21,947 nt of DNA from positions 1-21,947 of the IMG/VR virus record IMGVR_UViG_3300014913_000088; one strand, 5' to 3'. Below the pieces are notes generated by a model. The model was not told where the DNA came from. It worked only from the letters and a program-made list of their open reading frames with translations, and made no database searches. The position numbers were made by a program, and so were the translations under genes. Source of the stretch: a virus. Positions within the stretch are counted from its first letter, which is position 1. Each line of letters opens with the position of its first letter. Shown one piece after another: positions 4,863-21,928 of the stretch.

Positions 4863-6008
4863 TCATGCCACAAATTTGAATCCACCAGTTTTGTCAAATT
4901 TTTTAATCACTGAAATATTAAACCAACAAGCATAGGCTTTATTTGCTGTATCTTCAGGCTCAATTAAGCCTGAAGCTCTTGTCAACGCGTCTGCGCTTGG
5001 ATATATGTAACTAAATGTTGCAGGAACACTCGAATATTGCACCTGTCTTCTGATTACTTGGTCATAATCGCCGTGAACAGCTCTTGCTTCCCCAGCATAA
5101 CCACTAGCGCCTTCTTCGCACCTGTCATAAATATCCATACCATAATCAAAAATCCACGGGTTTTGGTATTGATAATATTTCCTGTACTGGACTATAGCAT
5201 AAGGGTCATTTTGTAACCACCCTTCTCCTGTCTGACCTTCAAAAACTCTTGATTCGTCGCCTCCTTCAAAATATCCCGCAACATCATGGTCTTCAAAGGG
5301 GGTGTTATGCCATGCAGGATAAGACGTTTTTATACTGTTAAGATATGAAATTACACCTGACCAAGACCAATCGCTCCATCCACTCTCTTCTTCATCACCT
5401 ATTTTTCCCCACGCCCTCCAGTCCTTTGAGTAACGTTCTCCCTCTTCATCCTCAAACGGGGAGTCGACATTTACAATGCCGTGAGAATCTATAGCGTGTG
5501 TGTAATACCATAGTAAAATATTTAAAATATCTCTTTTCTGCTTTAAATAATCCGCACAATGTTCAAGCAACCTACCTTGATTTATCTCTATCACGTTTTC
5601 ATCCCCTAGTTTCTCGGATAGGTTACTTATAACTATAAAATTATTTTTATCGGCCTTATTGAAAACAGACAAATCTTTTGTCTTATCAACAAAAACCCCG
5701 CCTATCATAGGATTCTCCACGTTTGTATATTTATAATCTTTTAAAAGCTTATTTTTAAAAACATTTTCAATTAATTCTTCCACGTGTTCTCTTGCTCCAA
5801 TATTAGCAAAATCTATATCCCAAAAAGGCTTTGCCAAATCGGGATGTACTCCACCTATTGAGCAATGAGGTCCATAAAAATATGGACCATGTAATCGCTC
5901 AATGATAGCTGTCCTTATGGCTTCCCAATATTTTGCTTCTAATGGATTTGGATTATCCCAATCCATCCCTTGGCCTTCCCATGATTTTAATTGTAAATCT
6001 AAAGCCAT
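4863..6008 (-). CDS. Unrecognised tail-tip region protein, 381 residues
   Basis: I do not recognise this protein. It is 381 residues, acidic and aromatic-rich, without a signal peptide or obvious membrane span. Residues about 200-225 are dense in Trp and acidic residues (DWRAWGKIGDEEESGWSDW), and 265-300 are dense in Tyr and Gln. The N-terminal third contains GPYFYGPHCSIGGVHPDL. It overlaps the preceding gene by ten bases, so the two are translationally coupled, and is followed by a 54-base promoter-bearing gap. Its place after the tape measure and before the fibres is where distal-tail and baseplate proteins are normally encoded, so a virion tail-tip role is likely, but nothing in the sequence shows which. 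Confidence 0.55.
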   Translation of the reverse strand: MALDLQLKSWEGQGMDWDNPNPLEAKYWEAIRTAIIERLHGPYFYGPHCSIGGVHPDLAKPFWDIDFANIGAREHVEELIENVFKNKLLKDYKYTNVENPMIGGVFVDKTKDLSVFNKADKNNFIVISNLSEKLGDENVIEINQGRLLEHCADYLKQKRDILNILLWYYTHAIDSHGIVNVDSPFEDEEGERYSKDWRAWGKIGDEEESGWSDWSWSGVISYLNSIKTSYPAWHNTPFEDHDVAGYFEGGDESRVFEGQTGEGWLQNDPYAIVQYRKYYQYQNPWIFDYGMDIYDRCEEGASGYAGEARAVHGDYDQVIRRQVQYSSVPATFSYIYPSADALTRASGLIEPEDTANKAYACWFNISVIKKFDKTGGFKFVA

Positions 6009-7972: not shown

Positions 7973-10717
7973 TTAATCTGTTAATAGTATAGCACCTTCG
8001 CCACTTACAATTTTATTGCCTATTTTTTCTAATAATACTAACTGTTTTTCTTGTGTTGAGTTGCTTAACTTGTTCTGGTCCCTTAATTCCACACTAAGCG
8101 CCCGTAATGCCTCGCGGCTGGCTTCTGCCTGCCCCATTCCGCGCCCTTTTGCAACCTCGAACAGCTCGGCCCCTCTTTTTCTCTGTTCTGGCGTAAGTGT
8201 ACGCATAAAGGCCCGCCCCTCTCTTGCTGTTACTTTGTCATCTTTGAATATGCTTTCGCGTAGCTCTTGAACCCCACCGGCCGCCCTTAACTGTTCTTGC
8301 AGTTTTTTTAAAGGGCTGTTTTTTGCTACTTCATCCTGCAGCCCTTTTATCTGGTCTGTGGTACTCTTATACCCCTCTAACTCTTCCTTAAGCGCTTCTA
8401 AAACGGCTTCTTTTTCTTTTTCCGTACCGTTTTTCATTATCTGGAATTGTTGCTCTCGCAATGCTTTAATATTTAAAATATGGGTAGCCTGTCGCTCTTC
8501 CAGTGCGTCTATAGACTGTTCCCGGGCTTGCTCTTCTGTAAGCTCGCCTGTAGCCTTACCGGCTAATATTTGCTGTTGCCTTATCTGAAAACTCAATATA
8601 TCGTTTTCCATTAAATCGAGCTGCTTTTTAAAATTGTGGCGGGCGTCTTCGCTTGCTAATACCGCGCCTATGTCTGGCAATTCGGTAATAAGCTTTCTTA
8701 TAAAACTATCCCGGCCGGCTAACTGACCCAAGTTCCCCTCTCCTAGCATAAATTCAGCGTGTCGCTTGAATTTATCCGCTTGCTCGTCTGTAAATTGCTC
8801 TAGGGCTGAAACAAGGGCCGGGTCTTTTATTTTAAACCGTACAAGGTCGGTTAATGGTATTTCCTGGGGAGTTGCCTGTTCTACCAATGTTTTGCCAAAC
8901 TTAGAAACTTCCTGCCCTAACTGATGGACTCCCTTAAGATCCCCAGTCTGTATATTTTGTAATTTTTTCCTAAATTCATCTATCGCGGTGCCTGACTTTG
9001 GAAATTGCTGCTGTAAATCTATTAAATCTTGTTTTAAATCTGCTACCCTTAACCCAAAAGCCTGCCCCTCTTTTTCTTGGCCTGCGGCTAAAAGTTTATC
9101 GCGGTTTGTAAATAAAGTCCCGTACATATCAGTTAAAGCCTTGTCTAAGCCTGTCACGTCTGCAATCCAGCGCCCGAATTTCCATGAAGCCATTGCAACA
9201 GGTATGGCTATCATAGCGCCTTGCAATATTCCCATAGTTCCACCCATTCCTTTTATAGCTGTAGCAAATCGGCCCGCGCTTCGTGTATTCGACTCAAACC
9301 CGGCCTTTATCTGCTTATCTAATGTCATGCGTAAGGCCGCTCGACGTTGTGTATTTATTATTTCTTGCTGCATTAAAAAGGAGCGTTGCCCTGCCGCATT
9401 CATATTTGCAATTAGAGCCTGGGTGTTTAAATTAATTGAAGCTGTATAATTCGCATTTGCCACTGCTGCCGCCGTCGCCTTCCCTGCCGTCTGGGCTACT
9501 GCCGCCCCTGCTTGTGTTGTGGCTGTAGCATTTTGAGCTGCAGCCATACTAAAAGAGCGCATTTTCCCTATAATAAGACTGGCAGCAATAGCCCCTAGTC
9601 CTAATTGTACTTCCCAGCCTTCGAGAGCTTGCACGCCTTCGGAAACCTCGGTAATAATTGTACTTAAGTCTGTAACTATCGGTGCTATAGCGTCCCCGAA
9701 ATTGATTAAGGCTTTATTCATTTCAACCATTGAAGTGGTCCAGGTTGTTTTTGTATTATCTGTTTGCACCTCAAAAGCTTTTAAAGCGGAGCCCCCCTTG
9801 TCGCCGAACTCTTCTAAAACATCTTTAAAAGTTTTCGCCTGTTCACCAGCCAGGGAAGCAATAGCGCGAAATGCTCGGACATTACCAAACATTAAATTAA
9901 GAGCTTCGACGTTATCGCCTGCTTTTTCGTTAATTTGCTCTATCATGTTGGCAAATCCCTGAGACTGTAAAGCGGTAGCGCTTAACTCTGTGCCCAGACC
10001 TTCAGCCACTTCTTTAGCCTCTTTTGTAGGGTCTAAGAATGATGTAATAACCTGGTTAAGTGAAACTATAGCCCGGCTGGTCGGCATTGTGCGTGTCAAT
10101 ACAGCAATGGCAGCCCCTAGCTCGTTTAGTGGAATTTTTGCAACGGACGCGGTATTTGCAACCAATCCAATTGTCCCAGCAATTTCTTGCCCTGTGGTCG
10201 CCCCTAGTTTTACAATCTGAAATAGTGTATCTGAAACCTCGCCGGCGTCTTTTACTTCCAGTCCGTAACTATTCATTAACTTTGTAGCGGCTTCCATAGT
10301 CGCTACCTGGTCGGCCCTTATGGCTTTGCTTAACTTTGAAATTTCCGCTGTAAAGTTGGCTAATTCTGCAGCAGACCCGCGCGCACCGGCAGAATAAGCA
10401 CGATAAAAGCTTTCTGTTAATTCGGTACTGGTCCCTAATACAGAATTAAGGCCCGTAATTTCTTTTCTTACGTCCTGTATATTAAGCTCGTCGGCAATAG
10501 AAACAACATTACTTAAGGCCTCTCCGAAGTCCATACTCGCGGTGGTTGCGTCTTTAAATACTTTTATGACTCCAAGTGTGCCAAACACACGCAAAAAAGC
10601 ACCTTGCATACCGGTTAAAACGGTAGCGGTGCGGCTTTGCATTTGATTAATACCGTTTAAAAATGGCCGGTTATCTAGTTTAACCGCCGAACCTATTGTA
10701 CCTAAATCATAAGCCAT
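7973..10717 (-). CDS. Tail tape measure protein (TP901 type)
   Basis: A 914-residue protein, the longest here, sitting directly after the tail chaperones. Residues about 60-340 match what I know of the TP901-family tape measure core (EALSNVVSIADELNIQ, STELTESFYRAYSAGARG, KLGATTGQEIAGTIG, LNELGAAIAVLTRTMPTSRA). An Ala/Gly-rich hydrophobic stretch at about 485-515 (GGTMGILQGAMIAIPVAMAS) may interact with the host membrane, as tape measures often do. The rest is helical and rich in Gln, Glu and Lys, including coiled-coil-like segments near 690-830. At roughly 0.15 nm per residue the tail would be about 140 nm, a general rule rather than a measurement. The start overlaps the T-frame stop (TAATG). 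No peptidase or muramidase domain is evident. Confidence 0.93.
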   Translation of the reverse strand: MAYDLGTIGSAVKLDNRPFLNGINQMQSRTATVLTGMQGAFLRVFGTLGVIKVFKDATTASMDFGEALSNVVSIADELNIQDVRKEITGLNSVLGTSTELTESFYRAYSAGARGSAAELANFTAEISKLSKAIRADQVATMEAATKLMNSYGLEVKDAGEVSDTLFQIVKLGATTGQEIAGTIGLVANTASVAKIPLNELGAAIAVLTRTMPTSRAIVSLNQVITSFLDPTKEAKEVAEGLGTELSATALQSQGFANMIEQINEKAGDNVEALNLMFGNVRAFRAIASLAGEQAKTFKDVLEEFGDKGGSALKAFEVQTDNTKTTWTTSMVEMNKALINFGDAIAPIVTDLSTIITEVSEGVQALEGWEVQLGLGAIAASLIIGKMRSFSMAAAQNATATTQAGAAVAQTAGKATAAAVANANYTASINLNTQALIANMNAAGQRSFLMQQEIINTQRRAALRMTLDKQIKAGFESNTRSAGRFATAIKGMGGTMGILQGAMIAIPVAMASWKFGRWIADVTGLDKALTDMYGTLFTNRDKLLAAGQEKEGQAFGLRVADLKQDLIDLQQQFPKSGTAIDEFRKKLQNIQTGDLKGVHQLGQEVSKFGKTLVEQATPQEIPLTDLVRFKIKDPALVSALEQFTDEQADKFKRHAEFMLGEGNLGQLAGRDSFIRKLITELPDIGAVLASEDARHNFKKQLDLMENDILSFQIRQQQILAGKATGELTEEQAREQSIDALEERQATHILNIKALREQQFQIMKNGTEKEKEAVLEALKEELEGYKSTTDQIKGLQDEVAKNSPLKKLQEQLRAAGGVQELRESIFKDDKVTAREGRAFMRTLTPEQRKRGAELFEVAKGRGMGQAEASREALRALSVELRDQNKLSNSTQEKQLVLLEKIGNKIVSGEGAILLTD

Positions 10718-15265: not shown

Positions 15266-15303
15266 AATAAACCTTTATTTAAGTTAATAAAAAACAAGGA
15301 TAT

Positions 15304-15335
15304 GTAGTCAGTATAGATAAATTATAGCTGACTAC
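15304..15335 (-). terminator. Hairpin between HeH protein gene and 49-residue gene
   Basis: GTAGTCAG (15304-15311) pairs perfectly with CTGACTAC (15328-15335). Inner TATA/TATA pairing extends the stem past one unpaired base. On the transcribed strand a T-rich tract (TTGTTTTTTATT) begins about six bases after the stem, so partial termination is plausible. Confidence 0.45.
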
Positions 15336-20778: not shown

Positions 20779-20886
20779 TTATATTTCATCTTTTGGCCCC
20801 AACTCTCCGCCACACTCGGGGCATAGCCTATGCACACTTAAAAACTCATAACCACAGTGGGGACATTTTACGCGTTTAGGTTTCAT
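20779..20886 (-). CDS. 35-residue zinc ribbon protein
   Basis: Tiny ORF with two CPxC knuckles (CPHC at 8-11 and CPEC at 22-25, ten residues apart), a compact rubredoxin-type zinc ribbon beginning MKPKRVKCPHCGYEF. Its ATG overlaps the end of the 129-residue gene by 11 bases, and its stop abuts the large terminase ATG without a gap. That fit, plus the perfect Cys spacing, supports a real gene. A role in packaging, transcription or host takeover is possible; none is shown. Confidence 0.7.
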   Translation of the reverse strand: MKPKRVKCPHCGYEFLSVHRLCPECGGELGPKDEI

Positions 20887-21265
20887 CGCTTACCTCATGT
20901 ATGTTGCCTATAATTTCAGATTCTTTAATAGTTTCACATAGACGCTCACATCCATCTATCTCGAACCAATCGACAAACCAAGCCCCGCTGCAATCCCCCC
21001 AATAAATAACCCCTCCACCATATAAAGGATGTTTGATAAAGTCTTGCGAATAGCAGAGCTTTTTATTTTTATCTTTGAGTCCTGTACATTGTTCAAATCT
21101 ATCTTTTTTTATGATGTCAATGCAATATGAGCGACAATGTAAACAGGATTCGTCCCCCTCTTCTACAATCCTGAAAGAACTTTGAAGTTGACCATATCTA
21201 AAAGAAATCTTTCCGCACTTTCTGCATTTTACGGCTATTCTGAACTTAAACCTATCATTACTCAT
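20876..21265 (-). CDS. Cys-rich putative zinc-binding protein, 129 residues
   Basis: Cys-rich protein with CRKCG (14-18) and CLHCRSYC (about 41-48) as a possible zinc site, followed by further Cys residues and an aromatic, acidic C-terminal half (VIYWGDCSGAWFVDWFEID). Its ATG overlaps the small terminase stop (ATGA), so it is translationally coupled to it. It is not an HNH endonuclease: the required His and Asn pattern is missing. A DNA-binding packaging accessory is possible but not shown. Confidence 0.6.
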   Translation of the reverse strand: MSNDRFKFRIAVKCRKCGKISFRYGQLQSSFRIVEEGDESCLHCRSYCIDIIKKDRFEQCTGLKDKNKKLCYSQDFIKHPLYGGGVIYWGDCSGAWFVDWFEIDGCERLCETIKESEIIGNIHEVSDET

Positions 21266-21759
21266 AATTCACCCTCCATTTTTTCAAGTAAGGCAAGCAG
21301 TTCGTCCGCGCTCATGCTATCAAGTTTTTTCTCTAAGGCCTTTTCTAATGCCTCATCCTCGGGCGTTACTGTATGTTCGTGTTTCTCGGGTTCGTTATAA
21401 CCACGCATTTTTCCGAGCGCTTCAATGGCTTTAATCCTTACCGACTTTGTGCTGTCTGGCTCGATAGGTAAACAGAACTTGTCTTTTCTGGCTAATTCTG
21501 ATAATTCCTTAAGTGCTTCCCGCCTCCCCATTATGGCCGCGTCCCATGCTTCGGCCTGGGCTTTTTCGATTGCTTCCTTAATGTTAAGTTTTGTTAATAA
21601 CTGGCTGGCCTGCTCTTTTGCGGTCTTTTCGCTGTACCCTGCGCGTACCGCGGCGGCGCTACCGTTATGGTCCTTTATGTACTCCCTAATAAAAGCTAAC
21701 TGCTTCGGTGTTAACTTGTTAGTCTTATTTTTCTTTTTTGTTTTCTTCTTTTTTGCCAT
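21262..21759 (-). CDS. terS: Terminase small subunit
   Basis: A 165-residue protein with a very Lys-rich start, then LTPKQLAFIREYIKDHNGSA and AVRAGYSEKTAKEQASQLL (residues 16-54), the classic helix-turn-helix of the Terminase_2 small subunit family. A helical oligomerisation segment follows, and the acidic C terminus (DELLALLEKMEGEL) may contact the large subunit. It recognises the packaging site and recruits the large subunit. GAGGTGAG before the ATG is a strong ribosome binding site. The leader contains the tRNA-like inverted repeat. Confidence 0.92.
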   Translation of the reverse strand: MAKKKKTKKKNKTNKLTPKQLAFIREYIKDHNGSAAAVRAGYSEKTAKEQASQLLTKLNIKEAIEKAQAEAWDAAIMGRREALKELSELARKDKFCLPIEPDSTKSVRIKAIEALGKMRGYNEPEKHEHTVTPEDEALEKALEKKLDSMSADELLALLEKMEGEL

Positions 21760-21775
21760 AATCTCACCTCTTCAA

Positions 21776-21891
21776 TGGTGGAGCGTAACAAATAGACAAA
21801 TTGTTAGTATTGCACCTGCGCGCTCGGGAGTCGAACCACGCCTCATAACAATAACTAGCCATAGTTGTGGGTTGTCTAAATGCTACGCCCC
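21776..21891 (-). other. tRNA-like inverted-repeat element in the terminase leader
   Basis: A 116-base stretch on the transcribed strand begins GGGGCGT and ends ACGCTCC followed by A-CCA: a seven-pair acceptor-like stem (one G-T) with a tRNA-like 3' end. TAGACAA/TTGTCTA (7 bp, perfect) extends the pairing inward. GGTTCGACTCC, a perfect T-loop consensus, lies at 21827-21837 but is about 40 bases too far from the 3' stem, and no D or anticodon arm can be drawn. It is therefore not a normal tRNA. It might be a degenerate tRNA, a structured leader or part of the packaging site. Confidence 0.45.
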
Positions 21892-21900
21892 GTAAATATT

Positions 21901-21928
21901 AAAATACCATAAAAAACCTATTTTTCAA
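21901..21928 (-). promoter_or_regulatory. Promoter candidate for the packaging operon
   Basis: Minus-strand TTGAAA (21923-21928), 16-base spacer, TATTTT (21901-21906), with TGG just before the hexamer. Hexamers are weaker than at the other three candidates, but ATGn and the spacing agree. The start point would fall near 21894, almost at the first base of the tRNA-like element. Confidence 0.4.

Follow-up and report, generated by a model that had tools for sequence, protein, structure and literature searches.

The leader of the gene for the terminase small subunit (terS) in the virus fragment IMGVR_UViG_3300014913_000088 contains a 116-base element that is predicted to fold into a long hairpin rod. 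From its fold and position, we tentatively read this element as a hairpin at the 5′ terminus of the terS (late) mRNA leader, and its resemblance to tRNAs (an ACCA end and the letters of a T-loop) is probably incidental. An initial annotation had offered a tRNA remnant, a processed leader RNA, a tRNA mimic and a packaging signal as explanations; among these options, the fold and the position best support a structured leader RNA, which may be processed.

Genomic context and anatomy of the terS leader

The fragment, a linear IMG/VR virus record analysed at its full length of 21,947 nucleotides (hereafter the window), has its late genes on the minus strand, namely terS (PF03592), a YopX-like gene, terL, the genes for a portal protein, a scaffold-like protein and a major capsid protein (MCP; Gp13-like), and tail genes. 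The terS ATG lies at 21759, and the final 188 nt of the record, upstream of it, contain no gene on the terS strand. In minus orientation, this leader is composed of a candidate promoter, the segment GGGGCGTAGCA-TT-TAGACAA ... TTGTCTA-TT-TGTTACGCTCC-ACCA, 16 nt including the ribosome-binding site (RBS), and the ATG (Table 1).

Table 1. Features of the terS leader and the downstream gene in the window
Feature	Position	Strand	Basis or remark
Candidate promoter TTGAAA-16-TATTTT, TG before the second hexamer	21901..21928	−	9/12 match; chance expectation 0.5 for the stretch scanned
Whole element: rod of 11+7 pairs that closes about 110 nt, ACCA at end	21776..21891 (116 bases)	−	Sequence and predicted fold
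Outer 11-bp stem, 5′ arm GGGGCGTAGCA	21881..21891	−	Pair probabilities 0.97-1.0
Inner 7-bp stem, 5′ arm TAGACAA	21872..21878	−	Predicted fold
T-loop-like string GGTTCGACTCC	21827..21837	−	Sequence and fold; inside another predicted hairpin (21841-21818), outside any T-arm
Inner 7-bp stem, 3′ arm TTGTCTA	21793..21799	−	Predicted fold
Outer 11-bp stem, 3′ arm TGTTACGCTCC	21780..21790	−	Predicted fold
ACCA directly 3′ of the stem	21776..21779	−	Sequence
RBS region GAAGAGGTGAG	21763..21773	−	Sequence and extended fold; weakly structured
terS, terminase small subunit	21262..21759	−	Pfam PF03592, E 2.4e-23

The 11 pairs of the outer stem include two G-U pairs, and the inner stem is perfectly paired (7/7); the two are separated by a 2x2 mismatch (TT opposite TT). 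The letters, the two stems, the ACCA end, the T-loop string and their spacing, as given in the initial annotation, were all found in the sequence and fold of the minus strand. The TTCG of the T-loop-like string is paired with CGAG in the predicted fold. The sense strand folds far more stably than the antisense strand (−44.7 versus −29.2 kcal/mol), and in the sense RNA alone both imperfect pairs of the outer stem are G-U pairs; these findings point to a function at the RNA rather than the DNA level. An intrinsic terminator was ruled out because no T-run follows the stem, and none was found on either strand.

The only promoter match in the scanned stretch predicts a transcription start near 21893. 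The start had been placed at the first base of the element; a promoter match does adjoin the element, but the predicted start lies about 2 nt before the stem. If this candidate promoter is used, the 5′ end of the terS mRNA would fold into the rod, and the RBS just 3′ of it, which is nearly unpaired in the extended fold, would stay largely single-stranded. Such a rod may make the 5′ end inaccessible to decay enzymes and may also insulate the start site, and mRNA stabilization by 5′-terminal stem-loops is established for other bacterial mRNAs in works listed in PMC3997798. The arrangement resembles the ompA/papA-type 5′ UTR stem-loops in having a predicted stem within a few nucleotides of the predicted 5′ end and an unpaired RBS 3′ of the stem, but the rod is longer here and the start is a predicted one. 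Against this leader reading stand the weakness of the promoter match (chance expectation 0.5), the unstructured terS leader of the only close relative (see below) and the fact that comparable helices arise by chance at the scale of the whole window. If the element is simply a structured leader, it is a routine one.

Strength of the fold relative to chance

A chosen segment of 120 nt folds at −44.5 kcal/mol (z −4.5), and none of 200 shuffles was equally stable. When the whole 188-nt leader was used, so that the ends were not chosen, 25 of 4000 shuffles folded equally well. The duplex formed by the two arms of the element (−29.4 kcal/mol) was reached in two (nearly three) of six Markov windows of the same size, and a duplex of comparable strength occurs once in same-strand coding DNA of the window (9490-9605). 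In addition, many gene-internal segments fold with z below −4, some stretches being near −6. The combination of a helix of at least 10 bp with NCCA and GTTCRANYC, a pattern chosen after the fact, occurred in 0 of 300 Markov windows and twice per 929 kb of real terS loci, or roughly 0.05 per window. The element is thus unusual for a leader, yet within chance for a 22-kb scan with a post-hoc pattern, and the initial statement that its features are hard to explain by chance goes too far, even though the folding of the leader taken by itself is unusual.

The element could accordingly be a fortuitous, functionless inverted repeat in a non-coding leader that was selected after the fact. Pure chance is a serious alternative, only somewhat less likely than the leader reading: equally strong duplexes in Markov windows and coding DNA, the strong folding of many gene-internal segments, the stemless leader of a sister phage and the failure to find a further copy in IMG/VR (see below) all fit it, whereas the location of the element within a leader that few shuffles match, and its termination at functional-looking borders, do not.

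Structured terS leaders were also found in other phages, with z < −3 in 14 of 216 leaders versus 2 of 208 controls; those inspected mostly contain terminator-like hairpins, the shape of which is unlike that of the present element. The strongest predicted folding of the window itself (z about −6 on both strands) was located at 5791-5927, inside the coding sequence of the gene that spans 4863-6008.

Relationship to tRNAs

ARAGORN identified neither a tRNA nor a tmRNA in the element, and Rfam searches at the gathering threshold yielded no match to tRNA (RF00005) or tmRNA (RF00023). Even at E ≤ 10, the 248-nt stretch searched gave only chance matches to lncRNA and sRNA models, with tRNA and tmRNA absent, although irregular tRNAs were detected by this method in the sister phage (27.4 bits), in the terS locus L004 (29.9 bits) and, with a disrupted anticodon arm, in L287 (43.2 bits). 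The absence of a cloverleaf, as first noted, is therefore borne out by both programs. Of the kinds of check that had been recommended, folding gave a hairpin rod and the tRNA model searches gave no match.

An acceptor-like stem of 7 bp (GGGGCGT/ACGCTCC) followed by A-CCA is present and is the sole defining tRNA feature of the element. The T-loop string, about 55 nt from the 5′ end of the element, is flanked by only two of five T-stem pairs, and its distance from the 3′ end is 37 nt too great. At the proper place for a T-arm there is a small AACAA/TTGTT hairpin, but its 9-nt loop lacks the consensus and it competes with the rod. The exact string GTGGTTCGACTCCC was found in 118 stretches across IMG/VR and is not diagnostic, since many of these are apparently coding DNA or ordinary tRNA context.

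These features bear on the proposal that the element is what remains of a phage tRNA gene into which sequence was inserted between the T-loop and the 3′ strand of the acceptor. tRNA genes occur near the 5′ ends of late operons in phages L and Sf6 (PMC8022706), several terS loci carry them ahead of terS, and the present element likewise sits in a late leader with an acceptor-like stem, ACCA and T-loop letters. In contrast to those genes, it has no cloverleaf, no T-stem, no D-arm, no anticodon arm of normal size and no tRNA model score, and decay would create neither an extra perfect 7-bp stem nor an 18-pair rod. The remnant option is therefore poorly supported, and we regard it as very improbable.

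A tRNA mimic cut by the RNase P of the host is the most interesting rival, albeit one of low probability. By analogy, the helix, with about 11 pairs and ACCA at its 3′ end, would imitate the acceptor/T-arm half of a tRNA, and cleavage before G21891 would leave the terS mRNA with a 5′ monophosphate end that is base-paired. Hairpins that represent the acceptor and T-stem are cleaved by bacterial RNase P, which reads the RCCA at their 3′ end (PMC11143913; PMC12710915). The element shares its helix length and its ACCA with non-tRNA hairpin substrates of RNase P (model hairpins and pre-4.5S RNA) but differs from them in that its 5′ extension may be just 2 nt, the amount that the predicted start leaves for removal. 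Moreover, no T-arm with a consensus loop abuts the acceptor-like stem, ACCA after a stem is a short motif, and the terS leader of the sister phage is without the element.

Comparison with a sister phage and possible DNA-level functions

Searches with terS and MCP converged on one close relative, IMGVR_UViG_3300009149_000240 (L001/L286/L367; the sister phage), and TerL as a query retrieved no locus. The MCPs of the two phages are 76% identical, the terS products 51% identical in the best segment, and the sister is collinear with the window at about 67% nucleotide identity across much of the first 12 kb. The terS leader of the sister nonetheless shows no similarity to that of the window, being short, AT-rich and unstructured (z +0.33); upstream of its terS are a resolvase-like fragment (Pfam E 0.012, below the cutoff), a small ORF and a promoter match stronger than that of the window. 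Because this sole close relative has an unstructured leader, a hairpin of this kind does not appear to be generally needed. Homologous phages lacking the paired segments had been named as evidence against the element, and the sister terS leader does lack them, this being one relative only. A search of IMG/VR with a degenerate pattern that fits both arms yielded no further copy of the stem, the stem pairs as gapped or degenerate patterns gave zero matches, and blastn of the leader against phages and plasmids yielded nothing meaningful.

The same comparison weighs on DNA-level functions, in which the element would be a packaging signal (cos/pac), an attP core containing the T-loop sequence, or a small element with terminal inverted repeats of about 20 bp. 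Each of these, like the tRNA remnant, is less likely, and as a group we consider them improbable. The element adjoins terS, and its arms, viewed as inverted repeats, are identical at 16 of 20 positions (by eye); the attP of P22 contains GGTTCGACT inside a tRNA-like gene (PMC8022706), and the sister has its resolvase-like fragment upstream of terS; these points favour a DNA-level site. Like the cos/pac regions that lie next to terS in phages, the element is a non-coding stretch that immediately precedes terS and contains an inverted repeat. A packaging site, however, should be common to phages with homologous terminases, and the unrelated leader of the sister, whose terS is homologous, speaks against the packaging signal proposed initially (a comparison with one relative only). 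In addition, the stem was found nowhere else in IMG/VR, no clear target duplication and no integrase were seen in the window, and the G-U pairs favour the sense RNA. TerS-binding-like iterons were rejected, only short two-copy repeats being present.

The sister carries a tRNA-Met-like element (L367:8174-8244; 27.4 bits) within its late operon, the CCA of which ends 14 nt before the next start codon; this position relative to a late gene is consistent with a tRNA mimic. The homologous gap of the window contains no such element. In this gap (15288-15335, minus strand), GTAGTCAG and CTGACTAC form a perfect hairpin whose loop is 16 nt long, and a T-run lies a few bases downstream. Between terS and terL, the window has the YopX-like gene (20876-21265) and the sister three other ORFs (L367:1059-2773); these differing genes make the neighbourhood of terS look like a hot spot of exchange.

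tRNA-like elements upstream of terS in other phages

Coding-strand T-arm motifs (a T-stem with TTCRANY) were counted in 224 distinct terS loci, the counts ignoring relatedness between loci. Six were found in the 55 kb that lie at most 250 nt upstream of terS, compared with 16 in the next 339 kb upstream and six in 433 kb downstream. Some of the sites before terS are ordinary tRNAs and others are irregular. ARAGORN under-calls tRNAs on cropped pieces around T-loop matches, and such calls were excluded as evidence on these matches. The enrichment makes the tRNA-mimic reading of the present element thinkable at low probability and does not make the element one.

The element might also belong to an unrecognized recurrent class of tRNA-like hairpins without a usable anticodon arm, located directly before terS (L198/L287, L237 and L004), that would exploit the RNase P of the host, or other enzymes that handle tRNAs, so that late mRNAs are cut and stabilized; we consider such membership very doubtful. 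No described class of tRNA-like elements before terminase genes was found in the open-access literature. There is a small chance that such a class exists, and it would be better studied in the other terS loci than in this element. If the element is a tRNA mimic cut by RNase P, phages would be using tRNA-shaped signals as punctuation in their late messages, and there would be a functional explanation for why tRNAs and irregular tRNA-like elements recur before terS.

Several individual sites were observed in these loci. In gut phages, a tRNA-like element whose anticodon arm carries an insertion and is disrupted and enlarged (L198:2154-2239, the same as L287:1876-1961; 43.2 bits in L287) ends about 30-40 nt before terS, and a relative of it (L288:1891-1968) keeps the acceptor and T-stem pairs through base changes and differs in the anticodon arm. 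Prophage elements upstream of terS (L237:2777-2884; L243:2018-2116 and 2338-2420), called by neither ARAGORN nor Rfam, either combine two T-arm hairpins with one acceptor-like stem or have an anticodon arm that is broken. In L188 (2410-2454), about 550 nt before terS, lies a 45-nt mini tRNA-like element consisting of an acceptor stem, a T-arm and CCA, without an anticodon arm. An acceptor-like span of ~165 nt in L214, located about 2.4-2.5 kb before the terS match and not called by ARAGORN, contains two tandem T-arm motifs. Finally, L153, L155 and L164 have a common stretch, ATGGCTTATACCCTACACGGGATAACTTAACTGATATCCC, directly before terS, with variable sequence further upstream; this stretch is possibly a packaging or regulatory site.
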